From Falsiruegeria mediterranea M17 (GTDB lineage Bacteria; Pseudomonadota; Alphaproteobacteria; Rhodobacterales; Rhodobacteraceae): a stretch of 64,000 nucleotides of DNA. Below the pieces are notes generated by a model that saw only the letters and a program-made list of their open reading frames with translations, was not told where the DNA came from and did not search any database. The stretch lies in assembly GCF_900302455.1 (NCBI RefSeq), contig NZ_ONZG01000003.1:434001-498000 (forward strand). Reading direction: 5' to 3'. Positions 18,386-50,788 of this stretch are shown here, one piece after another (within the stretch, counting starts at the first letter, position 1; every line of letters begins with the position of its first letter). A program made the translations under genes and the position numbers.

Positions 18386-19612
18386 TCAGTTGACGCTGTT
18401 GAACCACGTCACGATCGCCATCCGATCTTCGTCTTCCATGTAGGTGATGTTTGCGGGTGGCATCGCATGTGTGATCCCGGCCTGCAGATAGATGGCTTGC
18501 GCATTGCGCGCGATATCAGCCTCGGTTTCCAGCAGAACGCCCTTGGGTGCCCACAGGATACCATCCCAGAACGGCTCGCGGGCGTGACACATCGAGCACC
18601 GACCGAGCACGATCTCATGGGCCTCTTCAAACCCGTCGGCCTCTGCAAACTTCTGCTCGTAGGGGGTCAAGGGTTTGGCCTCGGCCTCCTCGAGTGTTTG
18701 GTGCATCGGGGCGGTCGAGAGCCAGATGATCGCAATGAACAGCAGCGCAGTCACCATCCAGGTCCAATTTGGCTTCCCGTTACCAGCGTGCATCGAATTG
18801 AAATAGTGCCGGATGGTCACGCCCATCAGGAAAACCAGGCTGGCGATGATCCAGTTGTACTCGGTGGCAAAAGCCAGCGGATAGTGGTTGCTGAGCATCA
18901 GGAACACGACCGGCAGCGTCAGATAGTTGTTGTGGGTTGAGCGCAGCTTGGCGATCTTGCCGTATTTCGGATCGGGTGTGCGTCCATTCTTCAGGTCGTC
19001 CACCACAATGCGTTGGTTCGGCATGATGATGAAGAAAACGTTGGCCGTCATGATGGTCGCCGTAAAGGCCCCCAGATGCAGCATCATCGCTCGACCGGTG
19101 AAGATCTGATTGTACCCCCAACCCATGATCACCAGCAGGACAAACAGCAGGACCATCAACAGGGTGGGACGTTCTCCCAGACCGGATTTGCACAGGAAAT
19201 CATAGATCAGCCAACCAATGGTCAGCGAAGCAGCCGAGATCGCGATCCCCTGCCACAAGGCCAGATCTGCTTTGTTGGCGTCGATCAGATAGAGCTCACC
19301 GCCAACCCAATAGACGATCATCAACAGTGCCGCGCCGCTCAACCAGGTCGTATAGCTTTCCCATTTGAACCAGGTCAGATGCTCGGGCATCTGTTCAGGG
19401 GCCACCAGGTATTTGCGGATGTGATAAAACCCGCCGCCGTGCACCTGCCATTCCTCACCATGGGCGCCGGGGGGCAAGTCGGGTGCTTTGCGCAGGCCCA
19501 GGTCCAATGCGATAAAGTAGAAGGACGAGCCGATCCAGGCCATCGCCGTGATCACGTGCAACCAGCGCACCGCAAAGGCGGCCCAGTCCCAGAAGGCAGC
19601 AAAATCATACAT
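18386..19612 (-). CDS. puuD: Membrane urate hydroxylase PuuD with C-terminal cytochrome c domain
   Basis: A 408-residue protein that oxidises urate to 5-hydroxyisourate. The N-terminal part has about eight or nine membrane spans (starting MYDFAAFWDWAAFAVRWLHV) and matches the bacterial membrane urate oxidase family. The C-terminal 70 residues form a class I cytochrome c with CSMCH at residues 339-343 and an axial-Met candidate in HAMPPAN. Electrons therefore probably enter the respiratory chain rather than making hydrogen peroxide. It is divergent from the LysR regulator gene and belongs to the purine degradation cluster that follows. Confidence 0.93.
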   Translation of the reverse strand: MYDFAAFWDWAAFAVRWLHVITAMAWIGSSFYFIALDLGLRKAPDLPPGAHGEEWQVHGGGFYHIRKYLVAPEQMPEHLTWFKWESYTTWLSGAALLMIVYWVGGELYLIDANKADLALWQGIAISAASLTIGWLIYDFLCKSGLGERPTLLMVLLFVLLVIMGWGYNQIFTGRAMMLHLGAFTATIMTANVFFIIMPNQRIVVDDLKNGRTPDPKYGKIAKLRSTHNNYLTLPVVFLMLSNHYPLAFATEYNWIIASLVFLMGVTIRHYFNSMHAGNGKPNWTWMVTALLFIAIIWLSTAPMHQTLEEAEAKPLTPYEQKFAEADGFEEAHEIVLGRCSMCHAREPFWDGILWAPKGVLLETEADIARNAQAIYLQAGITHAMPPANITYMEDEDRMAIVTWFNSVN

Positions 19613-20845: not shown

Positions 20846-21202
20846 TCAGCTGCCCCGATAGGTCGAGAACCCGAATGGCGACAGCAGCAGCGGCACGTGA
20901 TAGTGCGCGTCACCGTCCGACATGCCAAACCGAATTGGCACTTGGTCCAAGAACAAGGGCTCTTCTGCCGCTTGGCCTGAAGCTCGCAGATAGTCACCCG
21001 CGTGAAAGATCAACTCGTAGGTCCCTGTCTCGAACGTCCTCGTTGGCAGGATTGGGCTGTCCGTGCGACCATCCTCATTGGTGATCATCTCGACAAGTTC
21101 CTGCCGCGTGTCTCCGTCGACTCGGGACAATGTGATCTTCAATCCGGCCGCAGGGCAGCCCTTTGCCGTGTCCAGAACATGTGTTGTTAGATAGCCGCTC
21201 AT
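20846..21202 (-). CDS. uraH: 5-Hydroxyisourate hydrolase (transthyretin-like)
   Basis: A 118-residue protein with the two HIUase signatures: N-terminal [13 protein letters not shown] (about residues 5-17, containing the catalytic His) and the C-terminal tetrapeptide YRGS. It opens the 5-hydroxyisourate ring made by PuuD to give OHCU. A longer frame opens at 21253, but the ATG at 21200-21202 gives the canonical MSGYLTTHV start. It is divergent from the puuE-uraD gene. Repeat copy C follows immediately after its stop. Confidence 0.94.
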
Positions 21203-21329
21203 CGCTTCGTCTCCATTCTTCTGCCGTTGGGTGTGCCGCAGCCGCCAAGGCAATGCAAACGTCGCACCTGTGACAGTGTGTTCAGGTTTTTTTGAAGGTT
21301 AGCTGGGAAAACCTTTCTGTGGACGATGA

Positions 21330-21426: not shown

Positions 21427-22842
21427 ATGTCTGCCCCTCGTTACCCTCGAAACATGATTGGCTATGGCGCAACGCCCCCCAAGGCTCAGTGGCCGGGCGG
21501 GGCCAAGATCGCCGTTCAGATCGTCCTGAATTACGAGGAGGGGGGCGAGAACTGCCTGCTGCACGGGGATGAGGCGTCCGAGGCGTTCCTGTCCGAGATC
21601 GTGGGGGCGGCGCAGTGGCCGGGGCAGCGGCATTGGAACATGGAATCCATCTATGAATACGGTGCGCGGTCCGGCTTCTGGCGGTTGCATCGGTTGATGA
21701 AGGATCTGCCTGTCACCGTTTACGGTGTGGCGTCAGCTTTGGCGCGTTCACCTGACCAGGTGGCAGCGATGACGTCGGCGGGTTGGGAAATCGCCAGCCA
21801 TGGCCTGAAATGGGTCGAGCACAAGGACATGCCCGAAGAGGATGAGCGCGCGCAGATCGCCGAAGCCGTTCGCCTGCATACCGAAGTGGTGGGCGAGCCG
21901 CCGCGCGGTTGGTACACGGGGCGCTGTTCGATGAACACCGTGCGCCTCGCAGCGGAAGCAGGTATGGACTATATCTCGGACACCTATGACGACGATCTGC
22001 CCTATTGGGCTGAAATCGACGGGCGGGACCAGTTGATCATCCCCTACACGCTTGATTGTAACGACATGCGTTTTGCCACCCCGCAGGGGTTCAATTCGGG
22101 TGATCAGTTCTTTGCGTATCTCAAGGACAGCTTTGATGCGCTCTATGCCGAAGGGGAAGAGGGCGCCCCCAAGATGATGTCGATTGGCCTGCATTGTCGT
22201 CTGATCGGGCGGCCCGGACGGGTCGTGGCGCTCAAACGGTTCCTGGATTATGCCCAAGGCCACCAAGATGTCTGGTTCGCCACGCGGCTGCAGATTGCCG
22301 AACATTGGGCGGCGATACATCCGCCGGTGAAACACCCGCGCCCATCGCAGATGGAACGCGCAGAGTTTGTCGACGCTTTTGGTGGTATTTTTGAACACTC
22401 GGCATGGATCGCTGAACGGGCCCATGATCTGGAATTGGGACTGGCGCATGACACGGCGGGCGGGCTGCACAACGCGCTGGCGCGGATGTTCCGCTCGGCC
22501 AGCGACGAAGAACGTCTGGGCGTGCTGACGGCGCACCCGGATCTGGCTGGGAAGCTGGCGCAGGCTAAACGGCTGACAGCGGAAAGCACGTCCGAGCAGG
22601 CCTCGGCTGGGCTTGATGCGCTGACGGATGACGAGCGCGCATCATTCACTGAACTAAATCAAACTTACGTGGATAAGTTTGGCTTTCCCTTCATCATTGC
22701 AGTGCGCGATCACAACAAGACCTCGATCCTTGAGGCGTTCCAGCGCAGGATCGACCATGATCGCGACACCGAGTTTGCCGAGGCATGCCGACAGGTTGAA
22801 CGCATTGCCGAATTCCGCCTGCGGGACATCCTGCCGTCATGA
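21427..22842 (+). CDS. puuE-uraD: Allantoinase PuuE fused to OHCU decarboxylase UraD
   Basis: A 471-residue bifunctional protein. Residues about 1-300 are a cofactor-independent, polysaccharide-deacetylase-fold allantoinase (PuuE type, with NMESIYEYG and ASHGLKWVEH). Residues about 309-470 are an OHCU decarboxylase, with GGIFEHSAW holding His324, then AHPDLAGK, FGFPFIIAVRDHNK and EFRLRDIL. The fusion joins OHCU decarboxylation to (S)-allantoin with allantoin hydrolysis to allantoate, two consecutive steps after UraH. The UraD half lies in the same frame with no stop or frameshift. The gene overlaps allA by four bases (ATGA). Confidence 0.92.
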   Translation: MSAPRYPRNMIGYGATPPKAQWPGGAKIAVQIVLNYEEGGENCLLHGDEASEAFLSEIVGAAQWPGQRHWNMESIYEYGARSGFWRLHRLMKDLPVTVYGVASALARSPDQVAAMTSAGWEIASHGLKWVEHKDMPEEDERAQIAEAVRLHTEVVGEPPRGWYTGRCSMNTVRLAAEAGMDYISDTYDDDLPYWAEIDGRDQLIIPYTLDCNDMRFATPQGFNSGDQFFAYLKDSFDALYAEGEEGAPKMMSIGLHCRLIGRPGRVVALKRFLDYAQGHQDVWFATRLQIAEHWAAIHPPVKHPRPSQMERAEFVDAFGGIFEHSAWIAERAHDLELGLAHDTAGGLHNALARMFRSASDEERLGVLTAHPDLAGKLAQAKRLTAESTSEQASAGLDALTDDERASFTELNQTYVDKFGFPFIIAVRDHNKTSILEAFQRRIDHDRDTEFAEACRQVERIAEFRLRDILPS

Positions 22843-23330
22843 GCCAGCAGATAGCCATTCAGCCGATCTCGGCCCAAGCCTTTGCACCCTTTGGCGAGGT
22901 GATCGAGGTTGCGGGAGAGCCCGACAAGATCATCAACCAGGGACAATGCGGGCGCTATCACGACCGGGCCTCGCTGGACTTTATCGAAGGACGCGCCGGG
23001 GTGAGCCTGTTCAATGCTAACCCGCGGTCGCTGCCTTACACGCTGGAACTGGTCGAACGGCACCCCGAAGGCAGCCAGCTGTTCATCCCGATGACGGAAC
23101 ATCCCTTTCTGGTGATCGTCGCCAAGGATGAACTCGGCACGCCGGGGCGCCCGCTGGCCTTTGAGACAAAAGCAGGGCAGGCGATCAATTTTCACCGGGG
23201 CACATGGCACGGGGTTTTGACCCCGCTGCTTGCGCCGGGACTGTTTGCGGTCGTCGACCGCATCGGGGAAGGGGCCAATCTAGAAGAGCATTGGTTCGAC
23301 ACCCCATTCGTGGTGGCACGGCCCGGATAA
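22839..23330 (+). CDS. allA: Ureidoglycolate lyase
   Basis: A 163-residue protein of the ureidoglycolate lyase family (AllA), which splits (S)-ureidoglycolate into glyoxylate and urea. It opens with the typical IQPISAQAFAPFGEVIE, and LFNANPRSLPYTLELVERHPEGSQ (residues about 55-80) and the cupin-like region FHRGTWHG match the family. The ATG overlaps the stop of puuE-uraD. The glyoxylate product is the substrate of the bhc-encoded cycle a few kilobases downstream. The step between allantoate and ureidoglycolate is only partly covered in this window (see allE). Confidence 0.93.
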   Translation: MSQQIAIQPISAQAFAPFGEVIEVAGEPDKIINQGQCGRYHDRASLDFIEGRAGVSLFNANPRSLPYTLELVERHPEGSQLFIPMTEHPFLVIVAKDELGTPGRPLAFETKAGQAINFHRGTWHGVLTPLLAPGLFAVVDRIGEGANLEEHWFDTPFVVARPG

Positions 23331-23410
23331 GGGCGGCCACCAAATCAGAAGCCGCCAGACAAAGAAGCGGCAAGACCCCCATGAGACCCACAAGGGAGGA
23401 CAGTGAGATC

Positions 23411-24874
23411 ATGGCTGACACTTCGATAGGAACCGCGGCACAGCTGCGCGATCCGAATTACACACCTGCATTGCACAAGGCGGTGCCCCTGGGCATTCAG
23501 CATGTGCTGGCGATGTTTGTGTCAAACATCACACCCGCCATCATCATCTCGGGCGCGGCCGGTTTTGGATTTGGTTCGGACGCAGGGGCGCAGGGCTTTC
23601 CTGACATGACCTATCTGATCCAAATGTCGATGCTCTTTGCGGGCGTCGCAACGCTGTTTCAGACCATCGGCATGGGACCGGTGGGTGCGCGCCTGCCCAT
23701 TGTGCAGGGCACAAGTTTCGCCTTCATCCCGATCATGATCCCGTTGGTTGCGGGCAAAGGGGTCGAGGCGCTGCCAGCGCTCTTTGGCGGCGTTTTGATC
23801 GGTGGGCTGTTTCATACGCTGCTTGGAACCGTGATCGGCCGCATCCGATTTGCTCTGCCGCCATTGGTGACAGGCCTCGTCGTGACAATGATCGGTCTGT
23901 ACCTGGTGCGCGTGGGTATCGAATACGCGGCCGGTGGTGTGCCTGCCAAGGCGTTCAACAACCCAGAATACGGAAGTCTGCTGAACTGGTCAGTGGCGCT
24001 GGTGGTGATCTTTGTCACGTTGGGGATGAAGTTCTTTGCGCGTGGGATGTTGTCTGTGTCGGCGGTGCTGATCGGGATCGTCGCGGGCTACATCTATTCC
24101 ATGTTCTTTGGTTTGGTGAGCCTGGACGGGATCGGCCAGAGCTGGAACCGCGCTGCTGCTTTTGGTTTGCCGATACCGTTCAAATACGGGATCGATTTTA
24201 GCCTGGCGGCGGTCATCGGCTTCTGCCTGATGTCATTCGTCAGCGCGGTGGAAACTGTGGGTGACGTTAGCGGCATCACCAAAGGGGGCGCAGGGCGCGA
24301 GGCGACCGACAAGGAGATCCAGGGCGCGACCTTTGCCGATGGTATCGGTTCGGCGATTGCGGGTCTGTTTGGTGGGTTCCCGAATACATCGTTCAGCCAG
24401 AACGTGGGCCTGATCGCCATGACAGGTGTGATGAGCCGCCATGTGGTGACTATCGGTGCGATCTTCCTGATCGTCTGCGGTTTGATCCCCAAGGTGGGCG
24501 CGCTGATCCGCACCATTCCCATCGAGGTTCTGGGCGGCGGCGTGATCGTGATGTTCGGGATGGTTGTGTCGGCTGGTGTTTCGATGCTGTCGGACGTGAA
24601 CTGGAACCGCCGCAACATGGTGATCTTTGCGATTGCACTGTCGATCGGCTTCGGGTTGCAGTTGGAGGTGATGAACCTTGCGCCGGGATCGCCGAACGCG
24701 CTGCAATATTTGCCGGACACGCTGCGCATCTTGGCGGCCTCGGGCATTCTGCCAGCAGCGTTGATCGCCATCGTGCTGAACCTGATCCTGCCCGAAGAAC
24801 TGGCGGATGAGGCGACCGAAGAAGTGTCAGGCGGCATGTCCGGTCACGGCTCAGGCAGCTTGTCTGGCGAGTAA
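23411..24874 (+). CDS. NCS2-family purine (urate/xanthine) permease
   Basis: A 487-residue inner-membrane transporter with about 14 hydrophobic segments. The NAT/NCS2 signature SQNVGLIAMTGVMSRHV lies around residues 330-345 and an upstream QGTSFAFIP motif near residue 100, as in UacT/PucJ/XanQ-type carriers. It probably imports urate or xanthine with a proton. A longer frame runs through allA. The ATG at 23411, preceded by GGGAGG, is chosen because it starts the family-typical cytoplasmic N-terminus. It is 80 bases after allA and probably in the same operon. Exact specificity is inferred from the neighbouring urate genes. Confidence 0.88.
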   Translation: MADTSIGTAAQLRDPNYTPALHKAVPLGIQHVLAMFVSNITPAIIISGAAGFGFGSDAGAQGFPDMTYLIQMSMLFAGVATLFQTIGMGPVGARLPIVQGTSFAFIPIMIPLVAGKGVEALPALFGGVLIGGLFHTLLGTVIGRIRFALPPLVTGLVVTMIGLYLVRVGIEYAAGGVPAKAFNNPEYGSLLNWSVALVVIFVTLGMKFFARGMLSVSAVLIGIVAGYIYSMFFGLVSLDGIGQSWNRAAAFGLPIPFKYGIDFSLAAVIGFCLMSFVSAVETVGDVSGITKGGAGREATDKEIQGATFADGIGSAIAGLFGGFPNTSFSQNVGLIAMTGVMSRHVVTIGAIFLIVCGLIPKVGALIRTIPIEVLGGGVIVMFGMVVSAGVSMLSDVNWNRRNMVIFAIALSIGFGLQLEVMNLAPGSPNALQYLPDTLRILAASGILPAALIAIVLNLILPEELADEATEEVSGGMSGHGSGSLSGE

Positions 24875-24880
24875 AGGAGA

Positions 24881-24976
24881 GCTCCCGCCCGGTCGGGACG
24901 CATCAAAGATGCGCCCACCGACCAGTTGGGCCGGGCGCCACGCCGCACCAAGCTGAAGCTCGGTGTGGCGTGGCGC
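24881..24976 (+). repeat. Dispersed structured repeat, copy E
   Basis: GCTCCCGCCC (24881-24890) starts seven bases after the permease stop. A first hairpin follows (GGTCGG/CCGACC outside, GCATC-AAA-GATGC inside), then AGTTGGGCC, then a second long stem with arms at 24935-24949 and 24962-24976 (15 bp including one G-T pair). It lies between convergent permease and GAPDH-like genes. This copy lacks the CTCCC part of the second conserved block. Confidence 0.78.
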
Positions 24977-24995
24977 GGTTTCGAGATACTGAGAG

Positions 24996-25979
24996 TTAGC
25001 TGGCCATCCGCATTGCCACATCAAGCATCCGCGCAGAGAACCCCCATTCGTTGTCATACCAACCGAAGACACGCACTTGCCGTGTGCCAGTCATGCGGGT
25101 TTCCGGTTCGGCGATGATCAGCGATTCGGGCCGGTTGCGCAGGTCCGAGGACACCAGCGGCATATCGGTCCAGCCCAGGACGGGCGAGTCCAGAACCTGC
25201 CGATGCAGGTGGTCCCTGAAGGTTGCCTCGTCCATATCCGTTGACAGTTGCACCACGAGATCCACCGCCGATACGCTCGCCGTTGGCACCCGCACTGCGG
25301 CACCGCTGATCTTGCCAGCCAGATGGGGTAGCACAGTGTCGATCAGATGCGTTGCGGACGAGGTTGTGGGCACCATCGAAAGCGCCGCCGCCCGCGAGCG
25401 GGCCAAATCGCCGCGCGGGGCATCCACCAGCGGTTGGCTGTTGGTGTAGCAGTGGATCGTTGTCATATGCGCGGTCTCAACCCCGGCGATGTCGTCGATC
25501 ACCTTGACCAGCGGGGCCAGCCCGTTGGTCGTGCACGACGCGTTCGAGACAATCCGGGCGTTGCCCAACTCATCCTCGTTTGCGCCAAGAACGATGGTCA
25601 CTTCAGCAGCTGGAGAGGGTCCCGAGATCAGCACCTTGCCCGCGCCCGCGGTCAGACCGCGCGCCGCCACGTCAGACGTGCGCGCGATCCCGGTGCAATC
25701 GAGCAGCACGTCAACGCCGCTCAGGTCGACACGGGTCAGGTCGGGGCTGTGGGTGATCGGGATGGCACGGCCATCGACCACCAGAGCTTCGTCCCCGGCC
25801 AGCACCGCGCCGGGATAGGGGCCAAATGTGCTGTCGTATTTGAACAGATATGCGCAAGTTTCGAGCGGGGCGATGTCATTGATTTGCACCACCTCGACGT
25901 CGGAATCCTGCGGCAGGGCAAGCACCTGTCGCAGGATCGTGCGGCCGATGCGGCCGAATCCGTTGATCGCCAGTTTCAT
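24996..25979 (-). CDS. Glyceraldehyde-3-phosphate dehydrogenase-like protein
   Basis: A 327-residue member of the GAPDH/erythrose-4-phosphate dehydrogenase family. It has the N-terminal nucleotide-binding INGFGRIGR, the catalytic Cys in SNASCTTN, the partner His in TTIHCYT and the C-terminal WYDNEWGFSARMLD. Two usually invariant phosphate-site regions differ: SGPSP replaces the usual SAPAK-type loop and TSSATHL replaces the TTGAAKA-type loop. It is probably a paralogue rather than the main glycolytic enzyme. The start at 25977-25979 gives the standard MKLAINGFGRIG; a longer frame to 26096 is not needed. It begins 19 bases after bhcD on the same strand, so it may be the last gene of the bhc operon. 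Confidence 0.85.
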   Translation of the reverse strand: MKLAINGFGRIGRTILRQVLALPQDSDVEVVQINDIAPLETCAYLFKYDSTFGPYPGAVLAGDEALVVDGRAIPITHSPDLTRVDLSGVDVLLDCTGIARTSDVAARGLTAGAGKVLISGPSPAAEVTIVLGANEDELGNARIVSNASCTTNGLAPLVKVIDDIAGVETAHMTTIHCYTNSQPLVDAPRGDLARSRAAALSMVPTTSSATHLIDTVLPHLAGKISGAAVRVPTASVSAVDLVVQLSTDMDEATFRDHLHRQVLDSPVLGWTDMPLVSSDLRNRPESLIIAEPETRMTGTRQVRVFGWYDNEWGFSARMLDVAMRMAS

Positions 25980-25998
25980 GGGCGAAGATATGGCAGGG

Positions 25999-26964
25999 CT
26001 AGAAATCGACCTCAATGGCTGTTCCGCGCTGGATGGCAAGTTCCAGTGCGGCGGAAGCCACCGCGAGGTCCTGCAATCCGACACCGGTGCCGTCAAAAAG
26101 CGTGATGTCGTCGGCGGAGGTGCGACCGGGATGGGTGCCGTTGATGACAGCGCCCAATTCAGAGATCGTGTCGGCCCTAATCAGCCCGTCTTTGATGGCG
26201 TGCTGCGCCTCTCCCAATGTCACGGATTGCGCGATCTCGTCGGTAAAGACCTGCGCGCGCCTCAAAAGCGTCGCCTCGACCTCTTGTTTGCCAATGGTGT
26301 CGGTGCCCATGCAGGCGATGTGGGTGCCCGGGCGCACCTGGGCGTCCATCAGGATCGGATCAAAGCTTGAGGTGATCGAGATGATGACATCGGCCTCGGC
26401 ACCCAACTGATCCAGATCGACGGCCTCAAACGGCAGGCCAAGTTCTGCTGCCGTGTCGGCAAGGCGCGACAGCATCTCGGGGTGCAGGTTCCAGCCGATC
26501 ACCTTCTCGAAATCGCGGTGTTTGACGGCGGCCCGCATTTGAAACGCTGACTGATGCCCAGCTCCAATCATCCCTAGGACCTTGGCATCGGCTCGCGACA
26601 AATGGTGGATCGAAACAGCGCTGGCCGCAGCCGTGCGCAGGGCTGTCAGCAGGTTGCCCCCCACCACAGCGCGGCATTGGCCGGTGTCGGCGTCAAACAG
26701 AAAGACCGACGACTGGTGGTTGGTCAGCCCCTTGTCCATGTTGCCCGGCCAATAGCCGCCGGATTTGAGGCCCAGGTTCAGGCCTGCCCGGTCAAACCCG
26801 GACTTGAAGCCATAGAGCGCGTCTGCATGGCCAATGGCCTCGCGGATGACCGGGAAATTCACAGCGTCCCCGCGCGACATGGCGGCAAAGACCGACTCGA
26901 CAGCGGCAAAGCTTGCCTCTTCGGTCATGAGATCGGCAATCGCTGCCTCAGGTACGATCCACAT
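25999..26964 (-). CDS. bhcD: Iminosuccinate reductase BhcD (ornithine cyclodeaminase family)
   Basis: A 321-residue protein of the ornithine cyclodeaminase / mu-crystallin fold. It has the NAD(P)-binding LGMIGAGHQSAFQMRA near residues 130-145, GGYWPGN and the conserved lysine in YGFKSG (about residue 54). In the beta-hydroxyaspartate cycle BhcD reduces iminosuccinate to L-aspartate. The family alone would allow ornithine or alanine chemistry. The call rests on its position after BhcA, BhcB and BhcC homologues with a divergent IclR regulator, exactly the known bhc order. The ATG has an AAGGAG ribosome site. A stem-loop precedes it. Confidence 0.88.
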   Translation of the reverse strand: MWIVPEAAIADLMTEEASFAAVESVFAAMSRGDAVNFPVIREAIGHADALYGFKSGFDRAGLNLGLKSGGYWPGNMDKGLTNHQSSVFLFDADTGQCRAVVGGNLLTALRTAAASAVSIHHLSRADAKVLGMIGAGHQSAFQMRAAVKHRDFEKVIGWNLHPEMLSRLADTAAELGLPFEAVDLDQLGAEADVIISITSSFDPILMDAQVRPGTHIACMGTDTIGKQEVEATLLRRAQVFTDEIAQSVTLGEAQHAIKDGLIRADTISELGAVINGTHPGRTSADDITLFDGTGVGLQDLAVASAALELAIQRGTAIEVDF

Positions 26965-26984
26965 GGGCCGCTCCTTGTGTATGC

Positions 26985-27009
26985 GGGGCAGTGGATAAAG
27001 CCACGCCCC
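26985..27009 (-). other. Intercistronic stem-loop between bhcC and bhcD
   Basis: GGGGC-A-GTGG (26985-26994) pairs with CCAC-GCCCC (27001-27009) around an ATAAAG loop, with one bulged A. It fills the 69-base gap between bhcC and bhcD. No T-run follows in the direction of transcription, so mRNA processing or stability control is more likely than termination. Confidence 0.5.
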
Positions 27010-27033
27010 TGTGTTGTTTTGTTTGGGGGAAGA

Positions 27034-28197
27034 TCAGAACGCCTTGCCGCGCGCCGAGATCGGCCAGACCACCTCGACCTTGCCGCCACGCACGCCCACG
27101 TACCAATCGTGTACGTTGCAGGTGGGGTCACAGTGGCCGGGCACCAAGCGCAGCTTGTCGTTGACTTGCAAAACCGCGTTGGGGTCCGAGATCACACCGT
27201 GCTCGTCCGAACATTTGGCATAGGTCACATCATCGCGGCCAAAGACGACCGGCAACCCGCTGTCCACAGACTGCGCCTTAAGACCCGCATCAACGACCGC
27301 CAGATCGGCTTTGGCGTGGCTCATGACCGAGGTCAGGATGAACAACGCGTTCTCCCACTCGCCGTCATCAATCCGTTTGCCGTCCTTGTCGAGGATGCGG
27401 CCATAGTCGGCGTCCATAAAGGCGTATGAGCCGCACTGAAGTTCGTTGTAGACGCCCGATGCGCCCTCGAAATAGTAGCTGCCCGTGCCGCCACCGCCGA
27501 CGATGTCGCAGTCCAGTCCAAGTGCGGCAAGCGTGTCCACAGCGTCGCGGACCATAGCCACGGCGATGTCGATCTTTTCACGGCGATCGTCATAGCTGTC
27601 CATGTGCTGCATCGCGCCTTGATAGGCCTGGATGCCGGAAAACTTCAGCCCCGATGCTGCGTCGATGGCCTGGGCGATCTCGACAACCTCTGGAGTGGTC
27701 GTCACACCGCAGCGGCCCGCACCACAGTCGATTTCCACAAGGCATTCGATTTCGGTGCCGTGACGGGTCGCGGCCTCGCTGAGGTCAGCGACATTGGCCA
27801 GATCATCGACGCAAACCAAAGTACGTGCACCGAGCTTGGGTAGGCGCGCCAGACGGTCGATCTTGGCCGGGTCGCGGACTTGGTTCGAAACCAGCACGTC
27901 CTTGATGCCGCCGCGGGCAAAGACCTCGGCCTCGCTCACCTTTTGGCAACAGACGCCGCAGGAGTTGCCCAGCTTTTCCTGCAACAGGGCCACATCGACC
28001 GATTTGTGCATCTTGCCGTGGACGCGGTGGCGCACGCCCATCTGTGCGGCCAGATCGCCCATCTTGGTGATGTTGCGTTCCAAGGCGTCCAGGTCCAGCA
28101 CAAGGGCAGGGGTCTGAATGTCTGCCTCGGCCATGCCGGGCAGGGCGGGGATGTCATAGCCCACTTCAAGGCCTTCGAATTTTGCGGGTGCGTTCAT
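27034..28197 (-). CDS. bhcC: beta-Hydroxyaspartate aldolase BhcC (D-threonine aldolase family)
   Basis: A 387-residue PLP enzyme of the D-threonine aldolase / alanine racemase N-terminal fold. The PLP lysine is in RVHGKMHKS (Lys62 by family comparison). A C-terminal metal-site region VPGHCDPTCN matches the His/Cys metal ligands of D-threonine aldolases. In the BHA cycle it joins glycine and glyoxylate to (2R,3S)-beta-hydroxyaspartate. The ATG at 28195-28197 has GAGGATC upstream and is preferred over the frame opening at 28221. It lies 14 bases after bhcB in the order bhcA-bhcB-bhcC-bhcD. Confidence 0.9.
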   Translation of the reverse strand: MNAPAKFEGLEVGYDIPALPGMAEADIQTPALVLDLDALERNITKMGDLAAQMGVRHRVHGKMHKSVDVALLQEKLGNSCGVCCQKVSEAEVFARGGIKDVLVSNQVRDPAKIDRLARLPKLGARTLVCVDDLANVADLSEAATRHGTEIECLVEIDCGAGRCGVTTTPEVVEIAQAIDAASGLKFSGIQAYQGAMQHMDSYDDRREKIDIAVAMVRDAVDTLAALGLDCDIVGGGGTGSYYFEGASGVYNELQCGSYAFMDADYGRILDKDGKRIDDGEWENALFILTSVMSHAKADLAVVDAGLKAQSVDSGLPVVFGRDDVTYAKCSDEHGVISDPNAVLQVNDKLRLVPGHCDPTCNVHDWYVGVRGGKVEVVWPISARGKAF

Positions 28198-28211
28198 TAT
28201 CTTGATCCTCA

Positions 28212-29159
28212 TTACGTCCAAGGCAGGCGGTCCATGTCGACGTTGCCGCCGGTGATGATCACGCCCACGCGTTTGCCGGCAAAGACGCCGGGGTTTTTCA
28301 GGATGGTGGCCAGCGGCACGGCGCTGGAGGGTTCCAGCACTATCTTCATTCGCTGCCAGGCGAGTTTCATGGCCGCCACGATTTCATCTTCGCTGGCGGT
28401 CAAGATGTCGGTCACGTGGTTCTGGACGAAATGCCAGGTGTTCTCTTTCAGAGGCACTTTCAGGCCGTCGGCCACCGTCTGGGGGGCATCGTCCGCGATG
28501 ATGTGTCCGGCCTTGAAGCTGCGATAGGCGTCGTCGGCCTGCTCTGGCTCGGCGGCGTAGATCGCCGTTTCGGGGGCCGCATGGCTCATCCACAGGCAGG
28601 TGCCCGAGACCATGCCGCCGCCACCGATCGGAGCAATCACGGCGTCCAGCCCGTCGGTCTGCTCCATCAACTCCCGCGAGCAGGTGCCTTGTCCGGCGAT
28701 TACGCGCGGGTCGTTGTAAGGGTGCACAAAGTCGGCACCGGTTTCGGCGTGGACGCGGGCAAACACCTCTTCGCGGCTGCTGGTACACGGTTCGCATTCG
28801 GTAATCACCCCGCCATAGCCTCGCACGGCGGCCTTTTTGGCGTCGGGCGCAGTGCGGGGCATGACCACGTGGCAGGGGATGCCGCGCCGCCCGGCCGCAT
28901 AAGACAGTGACAACGCGTGATTGCCCGAGCTGTGCGTGGCAACACCACGTTTGGCGGCCTCGTCGTCCAGGCCAAACACAGCGTTTGACGCGCCGCGCAC
29001 CTTGAAGGCACCCGCCTTTTGCAGGTTCTCGCATTTGAAAAACAGCTGCGCGCCGGTCAAGTCGTCAAAGTAGGTCGAAGTCAGAACCGGTGTTCGATGG
29101 ATGTAGGGCGCGATGCGCTCATGCGCTTCGATCACGTCCCGGTAAGTTGGCAAGGTCAT
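28212..29159 (-). CDS. bhcB: beta-Hydroxyaspartate dehydratase BhcB (serine racemase/threonine dehydratase family)
   Basis: A 315-residue fold-type II PLP enzyme. The PLP lysine is Lys53 in NLQKAGAFKVRGA, followed by the phosphate-side loop SSGNHALSLSYAAG and a C-terminal VIITGGNVD. In the BHA cycle it dehydrates beta-hydroxyaspartate to iminosuccinate. Two starts are possible. The ATG at 29174 overlaps the bhcA stop (TGATG) but lacks a good ribosome site. The ATG at 29159 has AAGGA seven to eight bases upstream and gives the family-like MTLPTYRDV start, and is used here. Threonine dehydratase would be the naive call; the gene context argues for BhcB. Confidence 0.88.
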   Translation of the reverse strand: MTLPTYRDVIEAHERIAPYIHRTPVLTSTYFDDLTGAQLFFKCENLQKAGAFKVRGASNAVFGLDDEAAKRGVATHSSGNHALSLSYAAGRRGIPCHVVMPRTAPDAKKAAVRGYGGVITECEPCTSSREEVFARVHAETGADFVHPYNDPRVIAGQGTCSRELMEQTDGLDAVIAPIGGGGMVSGTCLWMSHAAPETAIYAAEPEQADDAYRSFKAGHIIADDAPQTVADGLKVPLKENTWHFVQNHVTDILTASEDEIVAAMKLAWQRMKIVLEPSSAVPLATILKNPGVFAGKRVGVIITGGNVDMDRLPWT

Positions 29160-29173
29160 GTTCAGGTCCTTCA

Positions 29174-30361
29174 TCACGCGGCATCCTGCTGTGGGTGGGC
29201 ATGCGACTGGCGATAGAATTCCTGCGCAGCGGCCACACCCGAACCCAGGCGGATGTTCATTCCCAGATCGGCCATGCACATTTCGGCCGTGGCAATTCCG
29301 GACAGGGCCATGACGTCGGTCATCGAGCCAAGGTGCCCGATACGGAACAGCTTGCCCGCGACCTCACCCAGCCCTACACCAAAGGCGGTGCCATAGGATT
29401 CGGCCGCATGAGCGACGATATCGGTGCCATTGATGCCCGGTGTCAGAACCGCGCTGACGGTATCGGATGCAACATCCGGCGAGGCGGCGCAGAGCTCCAG
29501 CCCCCAGGCACGGATCGCACGGCGGACACCTTCGGCGATGCGGTGATGGCGGGCAAAGACATTCTCCAGCCCTTCGTCCAGCAGCATCTGCGTGGTCAGC
29601 TTCAACCCGTTCATCAGCCCGACGGCGGGCGTGTAGGGGTAGGCGTTGTTGGCGTAACCGGCGGCCATGTCGCGCACGTCAAAGAAGGTGCGCGGAAGGG
29701 TGGCGGTTTCGGTCGCGGCCAATGCCTTGGCGCTGAAACCCACGATGGCGAGACCAGCGGGCAGCATGAACCCCTTTTGCGACCCGGTGACGGCGACATC
29801 GACGCCCCAATCGTCAAACCGGAAGTCCATCGACCCGATGGAACTGACCCCATCAACAAAGAACAGGGCCGGGTGGCCTGCGCTGTTGATGGCGCGACGG
29901 ATGGCGCCGATGTCCGAACGAACGCCGGTTGCGGTCTCGTTATGCGTCGCCAGCACCGCCTTGATCCGGTGATGGGTGTCGGCGGTTAGGATTTCTTCAT
30001 AGCGGGCCGCATCAATACCGTCTCCCCAGCGGGTTTCAACGATCTGCACGTCCAGCCCATGGCGCTGGCACATGTCGATCCAGCGGTGTGAGAACATGCC
30101 GTTGCGCGCGACCAGAACCGCGTCACCGGGAGACAGCGTATTGCAGATCGCCGTCTCCCAGCCGCCGGTGCCCGAGGCTGGGAAGAGAAACACCTCGGCC
30201 GAATTGCTTTTCAAAACCTGACGCACGCCCTCGCGGGCGGGATGCAGGATGTCACCAAACAGCGACGAGCGGTGGTCGATGCTGGGCATGTCGCAGGCCT
30301 TGCGCACCACTTCGGGGATATTGGTGGGGCCTGGAATGAACAGAGGATTTTGATGGCTCAT
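29174..30361 (-). CDS. bhcA: Aspartate-glyoxylate aminotransferase BhcA
   Basis: A 395-residue fold-type I PLP aminotransferase of the alanine/serine-glyoxylate class. It opens with the substrate motif FIPGPTNIPE and has SGTGGWE near residues 63-69, Asp170 in FFVDGVSSIGS and the PLP lysine Lys196 in GSQKGFMLP. In the BHA cycle it transfers the amino group of aspartate to glyoxylate, giving oxaloacetate and glycine. The ATG at 30359-30361 has AAGGAG upstream; the frame that opens at 30439 is rejected. It is the first gene of bhcABCD and is divergent from bhcR. Confidence 0.92.
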   Translation of the reverse strand: MSHQNPLFIPGPTNIPEVVRKACDMPSIDHRSSLFGDILHPAREGVRQVLKSNSAEVFLFPASGTGGWETAICNTLSPGDAVLVARNGMFSHRWIDMCQRHGLDVQIVETRWGDGIDAARYEEILTADTHHRIKAVLATHNETATGVRSDIGAIRRAINSAGHPALFFVDGVSSIGSMDFRFDDWGVDVAVTGSQKGFMLPAGLAIVGFSAKALAATETATLPRTFFDVRDMAAGYANNAYPYTPAVGLMNGLKLTTQMLLDEGLENVFARHHRIAEGVRRAIRAWGLELCAASPDVASDTVSAVLTPGINGTDIVAHAAESYGTAFGVGLGEVAGKLFRIGHLGSMTDVMALSGIATAEMCMADLGMNIRLGSGVAAAQEFYRQSHAHPQQDAA

Positions 30362-30419
30362 GGCCGTCTCCTTGATTGCTTGGGAACCAGCGTATAAGAG
30401 GGCACACGCGTCAGCAATT

Positions 30420-30442
30420 TTTTTGAAAAAATATTTCAAAAA
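30420..30442. promoter_or_regulatory. Perfect inverted repeat in the bhcA-bhcR intergenic region
   Basis: TTTTTGAAA (30420-30428) and TTTCAAAAA (30434-30442) are perfect 9-bp arms with a 5-nt spacer, 59 bp before the bhcA ATG in an AT-rich patch. Symmetry and place fit an operator for the divergent IclR regulator BhcR. Binding is inferred, not shown. Confidence 0.6.
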
Positions 30443-30448
30443 CAGAGA

Positions 30449-30492
30449 TTGTGGAAAAATTGTTTCTTGTCAGATGGTTGAATTTTTCACAA
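30449..30492. promoter_or_regulatory. Second, wider inverted repeat in the bhcA-bhcR intergenic region
   Basis: TTGTGGAAAAATT (30449-30461) and AATTTTTCACAA (30481-30492) form an inverted repeat interrupted by one extra G, with a 19-nt spacer. The right arm is 33 bp before bhcR. With the neighbouring palindrome it gives the intergenic region two candidate sites, as expected when a regulator controls both its own gene and the divergent operon. Confidence 0.45.
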
Positions 30493-30525
30493 TATGAAAT
30501 CTATTTTCGTTCTTGAGGTGGCGCA

Positions 30526-31353
30526 ATGAATGACCCTGTGGAATCGACCGACAAACGCTCGCGTGGACGCCCGCGCGGATGGCACGACAAGACCGAGCAG
30601 AACACGATCAAATCGCTGGACCGCGCCATCGTCGTGCTGCAGCGATTGGGGGAGCTAGGCGCTGTCACCCTGACCGACCTGGCATCTGATCTCGGCCAAT
30701 CTCCGGCGACAGTCTATCGTGTGCTGGTGACGTTCCAAAACCGCGAGCTTGTGGATTTCGACGACCGCGCGCAGCTGTGGAGCGTTGGACCAGGTGCGTT
30801 CCTGATCGGCGCAACCTTCCTGCGCCGAACCAGCCTTGTGGAGCGGGCGCGGCCCATCCTGCGCGCGTTGATGCAAGAGACCGGAGAGACCGCCAACCTT
30901 GGCATCGAACGCAACGGTGAGGTGCTGTTTGTCAGCCAGGTTGAGACACATTCCAACATACGGGCCTTTTTCCCGCCCGGTACGGTGTCGGAGATGCATG
31001 CCTCGGGCATAGGCAAGGCGCTGCTGGCCTTCATGGCTGAGGATCGGCGCGACGCGATCTTGTCGGTGCAGCCGCTGACAACCTACACGGCACAGACGCT
31101 GACCCAGCTTGACGCGCTGATCGAGGATTTGCGGATCAGTCAGGGTCGTGGCTATGCCTTTGACGCGGATGAGAAAACAGACGGTATGCGTTGCATCGCT
31201 GCCCCCGTGTTCGACGCCTTTGGCGAGCCGGTCGCGGGCATATCGGTCTCAGGCCCGACCGTTCGGGTCACGGATGAAGACATCGAAGGCTTGGCGCAAG
31301 CGGTCAAATCCGCTGCGCGCAGTTTGTCGATTGCGATGGGGGCGTCGGTTTAG
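30526..31353 (+). CDS. bhcR: IclR-family regulator of the beta-hydroxyaspartate cycle, BhcR
   Basis: A 275-residue IclR-type regulator. A basic N-terminal stretch (KRSRGRPRGWHDK) precedes a winged HTH (about residues 28-85, TLTDLASDLGQSPATVYRVL) and a C-terminal effector domain with the conserved MHASGIGKALLAF and GMRCIAAPVFD. In known bhc loci the divergent IclR protein senses glyoxylate and controls bhcABCD, and the arrangement here is the same. The ATG follows GAGGTGGCGCA. Its stop overlaps the convergent stop of the next gene by four bases. Confidence 0.9.
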   Translation: MNDPVESTDKRSRGRPRGWHDKTEQNTIKSLDRAIVVLQRLGELGAVTLTDLASDLGQSPATVYRVLVTFQNRELVDFDDRAQLWSVGPGAFLIGATFLRRTSLVERARPILRALMQETGETANLGIERNGEVLFVSQVETHSNIRAFFPPGTVSEMHASGIGKALLAFMAEDRRDAILSVQPLTTYTAQTLTQLDALIEDLRISQGRGYAFDADEKTDGMRCIAAPVFDAFGEPVAGISVSGPTVRVTDEDIEGLAQAVKSAARSLSIAMGASV

Positions 31354-31697
31354 CTGCCCGAGGCGACGCTCGGCGGGCAGCTGACCTGTGAATAGAACTG
31401 GCCCGAGATGTTTTCATACATGCTCGACCAGATCACCCGGCACCCGGTGGCCTGCTGAATGGCTGTCGCCGCTTGAACGCTGCGGCGACGCGGGGGCGGG
31501 CCGTAAGGGTTGAGGTTGTTCCAATCGCGGGTCGCCCGGTAGGTGACCGGCGTGTCCGCGACCTGAACCACTTCCCAGGTGCGGCTCATGACGCCAACGG
31601 ATTTGGTGGGGTATTCCGGCTTGGTCAAAGTGGTGGCCTCGCAGCCTGCGACAGCAAGAGCTGCGAGCAGAACAGGAACTGTTGCGCGGATTTTCAT
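31350..31697 (-). CDS. Small predicted lipoprotein, unknown function
   Basis: A 115-residue protein with a lipoprotein signal (MKIRATVPVLLAALAVAGC, lipid-modified Cys19). The mature part contains TWEVVQVADTPVTYRATRDWNNLNPYGPPPRRR and two further Cys residues. I do not recognise the family. The start at 31695-31697 gives the lipobox directly; the longer frame to 31898 is not supported. Its stop (TAA) overlaps the bhcR stop (TAG) by three bases in the convergent direction. Expected location is the outer or inner membrane, facing the periplasm. Confidence 0.7.
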   Translation of the reverse strand: MKIRATVPVLLAALAVAGCEATTLTKPEYPTKSVGVMSRTWEVVQVADTPVTYRATRDWNNLNPYGPPPRRRSVQAATAIQQATGCRVIWSSMYENISGQFYSQVSCPPSVASGS

Positions 31698-31776: not shown

Positions 31777-32607
31777 TTAGCGTGGCGGGGACAGAGGCAT
31801 GTGGCGATTGACGTCTTTGTACAACAGGTAGCGGAACCGACCGGGACCGCCCGCATAACAGGCCTGCGGGCAGAAGGCGCGCAGCCACATGTAATCACCG
31901 GCCTCGACCTCGACCCAGTCCTGGTTCAGCCGATAGACGGCCTTGCCTTCGAGCACGTAGAGTCCGTGTTCCATCACATGGGTTTCCGCAAAGGGGATCA
32001 CGCCACCTGGCAGGAAGTTGACGATATTGACGTGCATGTCGTGGCGCAGGTCTTCAGGTTCCACAAAGCGGGTGGTGGACCAGCGCCCCTCGGTTCCCGG
32101 CATCTCGTTCGGGGCAACGTCCTGCTCGCGAGTGACAAAAGGCTCTGGCAAGTCAATTCCGTCAACCGCTTGGTATGCCTTGCGGATCCAGTGAAACCGC
32201 GCTGCCGGTCCGGCGTGGTTCTTCAAACGCCAGGCGCATCCTGCGGGCAGATAGGCATAGCCGCCCGCTTCGAGCACATGATCGGTTTGGTCTATGGTCA
32301 GCGTCACCGCTCCCTCGACAACGAACAGCACCCCTTGGGCGTTTGGGTCGGTTTCCGGGCGTTCGCTGCCGCCACCGGGCTGAACCTCCATGATGTAATG
32401 CGAAAAGGTCTCGGCAAAGCCGCTCATCGGGCGGGCCAGAACCCAAACGCGCGTCTTGTCCCAGAAGGGCAAAAAGCTGGTAACGATGTCGCGCATCGTG
32501 CCTTTGGGGATGACGGCATAGGCGGTGGTGAACATGGCGCGGTCGGTCAAAAGCTGCTCTTGTCCGGGGTGGCCGCCGGTTGGGGCGTAGTAGGTGGGAT
32601 GTGCCAT
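31777..32607 (-). CDS. allE: (S)-Ureidoglycine aminohydrolase
   Basis: A 276-residue bicupin matching (S)-ureidoglycine aminohydrolase (AllE/YlbA). It starts MAHPTYYAPTGGHPGQ and has LPFWDKTRVWVLARPMSGFAETFSHYIMEV-like sequence and metal-site residues in FAETHVMEHGLYVLEG (about residues 200-215). It hydrolyses ureidoglycine to ureidoglycolate and ammonia, the step just before AllA. It lies about 8 kb from allA on the other side of the bhc operon. Allantoate amidohydrolase, which would feed it, is not in the window. The call is firm. Confidence 0.9.
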   Translation of the reverse strand: MAHPTYYAPTGGHPGQEQLLTDRAMFTTAYAVIPKGTMRDIVTSFLPFWDKTRVWVLARPMSGFAETFSHYIMEVQPGGGSERPETDPNAQGVLFVVEGAVTLTIDQTDHVLEAGGYAYLPAGCAWRLKNHAGPAARFHWIRKAYQAVDGIDLPEPFVTREQDVAPNEMPGTEGRWSTTRFVEPEDLRHDMHVNIVNFLPGGVIPFAETHVMEHGLYVLEGKAVYRLNQDWVEVEAGDYMWLRAFCPQACYAGGPGRFRYLLYKDVNRHMPLSPPR

Positions 32608-50042: not shown

Positions 50043-50696
50043 TCAGAGGATCTTGATGTCGGCGGCTTTGATGTCCGCCAGGAAGGCATCGAGGCCTTTG
50101 TCGGTCAGCGGGTGGTTCACCATCGCCTTGATCACGGCAGGCGGGGCGGTGATCACGTCGGCGCCGATGCGGGCGCTGTCTAGGATGTGGTTCACCGAAC
50201 GGATCGACGCCGCCAGGATTTCGGTCTCAAACCCGAAGTTGTCATAGATGGTGCGGATGTCCTCGATGATCTCCATGCCGTCGAGGTTGATGTCATCCAG
50301 CCGACCGATGAACGGCGAGATGAAGCTCGCGCCCGCCTTGGCCGCCAGCAGCGCCTGGTTGGCCGAGAAGCAGAGCGTCACGTTGACCATGTGACCATCG
50401 TCGGTCAGCGTTTTACAGGCCTTCAGACCGTCCCAGGTCAGCGGCACTTTGACGGCGATGTTTTCAGCAATCTCGACCAGCTTGCGGCCTTCGGCGATCA
50501 TCGTCTCGGCGTCTGTTGCGGTGACCTCGGCCGATACGGGGCCGTCGACCAGATCACAGATTTCTTTGGTGACCTCGATAATATCGCGACCGGATTTCTT
50601 GATCAGCGAGGGGTTGGTGGTCACACCGTCCACCATGCCCAGGTCGTTCAGCTCGGCAATGGCGTCGATCTCGGCGGTATCAACGAAGAATTTCAT
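50043..50696 (-). CDS. fsa: Transaldolase / fructose-6-phosphate aldolase-like (TalC/Fsa family)
   Basis: A 217-residue enzyme of the small transaldolase subfamily. It starts [22 protein letters not shown] is at residues 24-32; the Schiff-base lysine is Lys83 in NIAVKVPLT, and [11 protein letters not shown] follows. Family members transfer dihydroxyacetone units (transaldolase) or cleave fructose 6-phosphate. Sequence alone does not settle which activity applies. The gene is divergent from priA with about 90 bp between. Confidence 0.92.
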
Positions 50697-50788
50697 GGGG
50701 GCAGTCCTTTGATGGGTTGGCCTCTGTCCCGGATGCCTTTACCTCATGAAGGGACCCACTGAAACCCCTGGCCCACGAAAGGTGATCC

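Follow-up and report, generated by a model that had tools for sequence, protein, structure and literature searches.

The beta-hydroxyaspartate cycle has been described as four enzymes and a regulator. The main text of the paper on the Paracoccus denitrificans bhcR/bhcABCD cluster presents BhcR as a glyoxylate-responsive activator of bhc, and the words 'glyceraldehyde' and 'gap' are absent from that main text (PMC11323563). The literature searched gave no account of a gap gene paired with bhc. The gene reported here bears comparison with type I glyceraldehyde-3-phosphate dehydrogenase (GAPDH; GapA, TIGR01534), with erythrose-4-phosphate dehydrogenase (Epd), and with GapB of Bacillus, an NADP-type gluconeogenic isozyme (PMC9145139).

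The window (the whole 64,000-nucleotide stretch of Falsiruegeria mediterranea M17 that was analysed) resembles the P. denitrificans cluster in that bhcA, B, C, D, and bhcR adjoin, each above its curated NCBIfam cut-off, with bhcR divergent, but it differs in having a fifth structural gene, gapX, after bhcD. The features are, in order:

18386..19612, minus strand: puuD-type membrane urate oxidase (PF06181, 452.5 bits at G000:C22:452716-453597)
20846..21253, minus strand: uraH, hydroxyisourate hydrolase (TIGR02962, 129.7 bits, cut-off 87.45)
21427..22842, plus strand: puuE allantoinase fused to OHCU decarboxylase (TIGR03212, 519.8 bits; TIGR03164, 218.2 bits; above cut-offs)
22839..23330, plus strand: allA, ureidoglycolate lyase, which releases glyoxylate (NF002952, 281.8 bits, cut-off 260)
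23204..24874, plus strand: NCS2-family nucleobase permease, convergent with gapX (TIGR00801, 318 bits, cut-off 291.8; xanthine model 406.3, slightly below 414.15); the true start is probably further in
24996..25979, minus strand: gapX, divergent GAPDH-family gene of 327 aa, with Cys149/His176, Asp33 (NAD type), Ser209, and Cys177
25999..26964, minus strand: bhcD, iminosuccinate reductase (NF045643, 598.5 bits, cut-off 500)
27034..28197, minus strand: bhcC, 3-hydroxy-D-aspartate aldolase (NF045642, 746.4 bits, cut-off 690); frame open to 28221, start placed at the model's beginning
28212..29174, minus strand: bhcB, beta-hydroxyaspartate dehydratase (NF045641, 601.3 bits, cut-off 550); start uncertain by a few codons
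29174..30361, minus strand: bhcA, L-aspartate--glyoxylate aminotransferase (NF045640, 730.9 bits, cut-off 650); start placed at the model's beginning, the frame extending further open
30415..30429, minus strand: 15-bp box WTTTCRAAAAAATTG upstream of bhcA, conserved in bhcR-bhcA spacers
30526..31353, plus strand: bhcR, IclR-type regulator, divergent from bhcA (NF045644, 385.5 bits, cut-off 350)
31350..31697, minus strand: small lipoprotein-like gene, so called from its signal-peptide pattern; no NCBIfam match
31777..32607, minus strand: allE, (S)-ureidoglycine aminohydrolase of purine breakdown (NF008376, 535.1 bits, cut-off 338)

An intact third GAPDH gene

The gapX reading frame is intact, running on the minus strand from an ATG at 25979 to a stop ending at 24996, and it starts 19 bases after bhcD on the same strand, as the sequence-only reading had placed it. 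(GapX is our own label for the subfamily, and residues are numbered as in E. coli GapA without Met.) Inspection of the window by eye gave no clear ribosome-binding site ahead of the gene, and neither pgk nor fba was seen beside it. The product passes the Pfam Gp_dh_C model (PF02800; 139.5 bits, gathering cut-off 24.4), which makes it a member of the GAPDH superfamily. It is not the sole gap of the genome: a search for others recovered two, both canonical, on contigs C14 and C31, to which GapX, the third GAPDH version, is 46% and 45% identical, respectively. Because the open frame has 46% identity to canonical gaps and evolves under purifying selection (against Tropicibacter sp. R16_0, dN 0.011 / dS 0.332; against three Ruegeria, dN 0.13–0.17 / dS 1.2–1.3), gapX is not a chance reading frame. 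Tropicibacter sp. R16_0 holds the nearest named relative among the matches listed (98% identity), and Paracoccus denitrificans DSM 413 carries a homologue, L075, with 60% identity, located away from bhc.

A scan of positions 24800-30700 gave no promoter-like site (shuffles averaged 1.3) and four terminator-like sites (shuffles averaged 4.7), none of them between bhcD and gapX. Since the gap between the two genes is 19 nt and no terminator-like site intervenes, gapX is likely co-transcribed with bhcD.

GapX forms its own clade

In a quick tree of 161 Gap rows the window gene falls within a 93-row clade, GapX (SH-aLRT 100, stem 0.66), and not in a firm group with glycolytic GapA. The other clades bear labels of our own: A, with the C14 gene of this genome; B, canonical and absent from it; C, with its C31 gene; and E, two representatives of which pass the ArsJ-associated model. 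Mixture-model trees recover GapX with 100/100 support and join it first to a single odd gene, L022 (99/95 and 97/94), and the GapX stem is long across trees (0.66–1.03). L022 (also L248; G004:C6:90559-91533) is intermediate between canonical gap and GapX: it already has Gly120, Cys177, Ser181, Ser196, Ser209, and Leu213, and is ordinary at positions 42, 44, 50, 52, 84, 108, 133, 153, 204, 235, 236, 284, 296, and 308. Because it combines the pocket changes with mostly ordinary outer residues, the GapX pocket must have changed before the rest of the protein.

The free trees separate GapX from Epd, and AU tests, on long branches, do not reject a deep tie between them: a clade of GapX and E. coli Epd has p 0.125, one with eleven Epd rows has p 0.374, and forcing GapX, L022, and Epd into one clade improves on the free tree by 4.42 log units (p 0.608). 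Uniting GapX with E. coli GapA gives a borderline result (p 0.0498), and uniting it with clade C is rejected (p 0.014), a rejection that may be explained by L022 having been left outside.

Judged by model scores, GapX is in the GAPDH superfamily but outside the GAPDH-I, Epd, GapB, and ArsJ-associated models, since it misses all their cut-offs. The TIGR01534 equivalog cut-off of 367.2 is missed by the window protein (336.9), L075 (366.1), and L098 (332.7). On the two Epd models GapX scores 268.2 of 530.55 and 262.2 of 539, about half the cut-offs; on the GapB model PRK07729 it reaches 302 of 546 bits, with neither loss of Asp33 nor Lys/Arg188; and on ArsJ-associated GAPDH (NF033735) it reaches 265.4 of 450.

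Catalytic and phosphate-ligand residues are kept in an altered pocket

The catalytic cysteine and histidine, rightly recognized from the sequence at the outset, are present in 93 of 93 GapX rows (Cys149, His176), as are Thr179, Arg231, Ser148, and Thr150. Position 181 is Ser in 92 rows and Ala in one, position 208 is Thr in 72 and Ser in 21, and the window gene has Ser at both. The side-chain ligands of the two GAPDH phosphate sites, as listed in PMC8615399 (where residue numbers are one higher than ours, and where Gly209 is listed for its backbone), are therefore kept. Ser209, which replaces that glycine whose backbone contacts phosphate, is fixed in all 93 rows, as are Cys177 and Ser236; positions 120, 196, 213, 153, 99, and 50 are mostly changed, and Gly120, Ser181, Ser196, and Leu213 are the prevailing residues. 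GapX is thus like type I GAPDH in fold, catalytic Cys/His, phosphate-ligand side chains, and NAD-type Asp, and unlike it in its separate clade, its fixed Ser209, Cys177, and Ser236, and its loss of Cys153. The claim that two phosphate-contact loops differ from ordinary GAPDH stands against the canonical paralogues of the family (Ala to Gly at 120, Gly to Ser at 209) but not fully against E. coli GapA, which also has Gly120.

Position 33 is Asp in 88 of the 93 rows and Glu in five, and Pro188 occurs in 98%; in clade A, all 19 rows have Ala33 and most have Arg188. According to PMC9145139, the D34A change confers NADP activity on the E. coli enzyme, and enzymes of the NADP type have Lys or Arg at the position numbered 189 there. 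Given Ala33 and Arg188 on the one side and Asp33 and Pro188 on the other, clade A looks NADP-type and GapX NAD-type. GapX differs in this from GapB: it keeps Asp33 and Pro188, and it is the C14 gap of the same genome that has the NADP-like signature.

The predicted fold is that of ordinary GAPDH (pLDDT 87, Z up to 39.8), with pLDDT below 50 in the S-loop (180-189, 194-201). Fold comparison cannot tell GAPDH from Epd, as the best 50 matches listed run from Z 39.8 to 38.4 and Epd 2x5k, at 38.7, is tied with them. At 21 columns that distinguish Epd from clades A–C, GapX shares the Epd state at three (20, 35, 244), none of them catalytic or a phosphate ligand, has the GAPDH state at nine, and has its own at nine. 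Position 179 is Met in 11 of 11 Epd rows and Thr in all 93 GapX rows, and Met179, Val206, Asp207, Leu210, and Gly213 are not the majority residue of GapX at any of these positions. The 'MPLVSSDL' region, which the sequence-only reading had considered closer to Epd, is not: over 33 residues it has 12 matches to E. coli Epd, 16 to the C14 gap, 12 to the C31 gap, and 6 to E. coli GapA, and the ordinary Phe-Asn of columns 283-284, present in Epd, is Leu-Arg in the window protein.

Linkage to bhc and purine genes recurs across the family

Recurrence was assessed across 149 genomes of the family, sampled evenly, with GapX scored at E<=1e-95; the association p values take each genome, one per genus, as an independent observation. 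Of these genomes, 64 have a scored GapX, 60 have bhcC above cut-off, and 35 have both (odds ratio 2.9, p 0.0024), so that 29 of the 64 GapX genomes have no bhcC above cut-off and 25 bhcC genomes have no scored GapX. Contig-broken GapX copies in G015 and G024 fall outside the 64 because of this threshold; the one in G024 follows bhcD. In genomes with both genes, bhcC lies within 5 kb of GapX in 20 of 35, always upstream and on the same strand. Two sub-cut-off cases (G061, with only a sub-cut-off bhcC-like gene, and G025, with a partial bhcC match) bring the bhcC-adjacent genes to 22 of 64, and order and strand are the same in all 22. By contrast, of the 44 canonical clade B genes found in genomes with bhcC, only 1 lies within 6 kb of it (Fisher p 1.9e-8), under a distance rule slightly unequal to the 5 kb used for GapX.

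The spacing between bhcD and gapX is at most 202 nt in 18 of 22 measured sample loci, the window included, and the Tateyamaria omphalii plasmid NZ_CP019313.1 has the order bhcR / bhcA-B-C-D-gap, with 22 nt from bhcD to gap. Mapped on the 64-row GapX tree, the bhc-adjacent state changes 12 times, and at least 10 of these changes, whether gains or losses, which are not distinguishable, are forced by supported branches. Within the 17-row clade that holds the window gene, bhc adjacency is confined to its own genus (2 of 17). Several bhc loci are plasmid-borne or move as blocks.

Purine genes form the other chief context, and both contexts make or use glyoxylate. Within 10 kb of GapX, allA or puuD occurs in 28 of 64 cases, and bhcC, allA, or puuD in 36; the other 28 have none of the three, and the neighbours are mixed in the loci sampled. 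Among named relatives, taken as the best 80 by similarity of at least 465 confirmed, bhcA/B/D occur in 7 of 80 loci and allE, allA, puuE, or uraH (>50% identity) in 43; bhc (including bhcC) or purine genes are found in 46, and neither in 34. The separate clade and the recurrent linkage support the proposal that gapX encodes a divergent GAPDH connected with the bhc operon and with glyoxylate metabolism.

Ruegeria loci carry allE, then the small lipoprotein-like gene, then gapX, and have allA and puuE opposite them. In the window, bhcR-bhcABCD separates the lipoprotein-like gene from gapX, directly adjacent in Ruegeria; the bhc block therefore probably entered the purine cluster exactly next to gapX.

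The Ruegeria-type purine cluster (allE, lipoprotein-like gene, gapX; L035-L045 and others) was seen in 20 of the 80 loci, and the L038 copy of the small gene has no Pfam match at E<=1e-10. Elsewhere a lone bhcC-like gene stands directly before gapX without bhcA, B, or D (L079 and L081, both Shimia, and L188, in G061); the one in L079 reaches 668 of 690 on the BhcC model and is preceded by allE and followed by gapX and then malic enzyme.

GapX also tends to exclude clade B, which was found in 101 genomes, taken from matches listed down to 472 bits, with clade B above that, and set by a line of about 535 bits derived from the 161 known rows (the best clade C row scores 531.7). Both are present in 36 genomes, GapX only in 28, clade B only in 65, and neither in 20 (odds ratio 0.40, p 0.013). 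Eleven of the 28 GapX genomes lacking clade B, two of which are less than 80% complete (G122, G145), have a single canonical gap, from clade A with Ala33 in ten and from clade C in G032; at least two of those ten (G019, G030) also have a clade E gap. Where the single canonical gap is an Ala33 clade A gene, GapX may be the main NAD-type GAPDH.

BhcR-type regulators beside GapX

A BhcR-type regulator stands beside GapX or a GapX-like gene, without bhcABCD there, in three genomes. G004 has a single BhcR match at E<=1e-60 (363.3 bits, cut-off 350), transcribed divergently from the GapX-like L022; its bhcABCD lies on another contig, without bhcR in the stretch read. The only BhcR-type matches of G117 and G147 (346.6 and about 306 bits, both below the cut-off of 350) adjoin gapX. 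Overall, such a regulator was found within 2.5 kb in 5 of 93 loci without bhcA/B/D.

The 15-bp box upstream of bhcA was aligned in 21 of 21 bhcR-bhcA spacers (13 exact, four with one mismatch, three with two, and one with three), in an alignment that by design selects the best site per spacer and in which the window, L034, and L217 are near-copies. It has no other match with up to two mismatches in the window, is also found in the bhc cluster of G004, and is a candidate BhcR operator or promoter element. The spacers of two BhcR-adjacent genes hold no convincing copy: L248 has none, and the best score in L201 (-1.4) is above the shuffled 95% point (-4.9) but below the shuffled maximum (9.3). 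With up to three mismatches allowed, the box has no match in L251 and a single one in L248, which lies outside the spacer. An operator shared by bhcA and BhcR-adjacent gapX is disfavoured because the box is not convincing before the two genes tested.

Possible roles of GapX

The reading we favour, at somewhat better than an even chance, is that GapX is a GAPDH isozyme of the NAD-type, phosphorylating kind, recruited to carry triose-phosphate flux, chiefly in the gluconeogenic direction, while glyoxylate is being assimilated. It starts from an intact gene under purifying selection, whose product has the GAPDH fold, the catalytic and phosphate-ligand residues, and an NAD-type site, and from the recurrence of bhc and purine genes beside it. 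The BhcR-type regulators next to GapX, its tendency to exclude clade B, and the Ala33 gaps of genomes lacking clade B also count in favour. Glyoxylate derived from glycolate or purines would induce a BhcR-controlled bhcABCD-gapX unit; the beta-hydroxyaspartate cycle would yield oxaloacetate; and in the ensuing gluconeogenesis GapX would use NADH to convert 1,3-bisphosphoglycerate into glyceraldehyde-3-phosphate. We infer co-transcription and glyoxylate control, together with glyceraldehyde-3-phosphate as substrate and the gluconeogenic direction, the last two from the kept ligands and from pathway logic. Counted against this reading are the 28 of 64 GapX genes without bhcC, allA, or puuD nearby, the missed GAPDH-I cut-off, and the two other gaps, which could serve. 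Also on that side are the position of L075 apart from bhc, the genomes that have only one of GapX and bhcC, the Ser209 substitution, the lack of a convincing box before BhcR-adjacent genes, the absence of a clear ribosome-binding site and of pgk or fba, and the Epd grouping that the AU tests do not reject. Recurrence of the bhc-GapX pairing in many related bacteria suggests a helper enzyme in building sugars from glyoxylate. GapX would then, like GapB (PMC9145139), be a second, gluconeogenic isozyme. If true, the recurrent fifth gene would mean that C2 assimilation in bacteria is coupled to a triose-phosphate isozyme of its own, and gapX would be an extra part to consider in transplanting the beta-hydroxyaspartate cycle.

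A bolder proposal, possible but on the doubtful side, is that GapX is a new functional class in the GAPDH superfamily, its pocket remodelled first for glyoxylate-loaded cells: a glyoxylate-tolerant GAPDH or another phosphorylated-aldehyde dehydrogenase, under BhcR-type control and forming the fifth enzyme of the bhc operon. We also consider it unlikely that the substrate of GapX is simply a different phosphorylated aldehyde, or that the enzyme is a GAPDH adapted to cells loaded with glyoxylate, for instance through insensitivity to this reactive compound. The fixed and prevailing pocket changes, their presence in L022 ahead of many outer positions, and the long stem argue for such a shift, but GapX retains the side chains by which E. 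coli GAPDH binds its two phosphates, and the neighbours point to no candidate substrate. The suggestion of an aldehyde tied to glyoxylate fits the genomic context; the retained phosphate ligands make a phosphate-free substrate less likely.

Less probable still, GapX would be a spare GAPDH isozyme without any particular connection to glyoxylate, found beside bhc since bhc and purine genes gather in the same islands. The GapX genes that lack bhcC, allA, and puuD within 10 kb would fit, as would the plasmid-borne or mobile bhc blocks and the window itself, where bhc and purine genes form one block and gapX may follow the purine cluster. Such drift sits poorly with an order and strand identical in every adjacent case, in an arrangement arisen or lost at least ten times on the tree, and with BhcR-type regulators beside GapX where bhcABCD is lacking.

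We regard as very unlikely the idea, raised from the sequence, that GapX is an erythrose-4-phosphate dehydrogenase feeding PLP synthesis for BhcA, BhcB, and BhcC, all three of them PLP enzymes. Their presence in the operon and the AU tests, which do not reject GapX with Epd, leave the idea weakened rather than refuted. GapX scores far under the Epd cut-offs, shares 3 of 21 diagnostic columns, has Thr179 in place of Met179, and often stands beside purine genes where no bhc gene is seen; moreover, pdxJ occurs in 144 of 149 genomes and GapX in 64. The glycerate pathway as partner of GapX is rejected, since glyoxylate carboligase was found in 0 of 149 genomes at E<=1e-150 (at most eight candidates scored in the genomes listed), in a search that detected the E. 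coli control.

The canonical C31 gap of the window's own genome outscores GapX on the Epd models (374.3 and 391.7), as does canonical clade B. This gene (50205-51176, minus strand) adjoins a second, divergent pdxJ-like gene (51552-52295, plus strand; PF03740, 244 bits), an arrangement also noted for L115; the pairing is not kept in the genus, as the two genes lie about 17 kb apart in G003.
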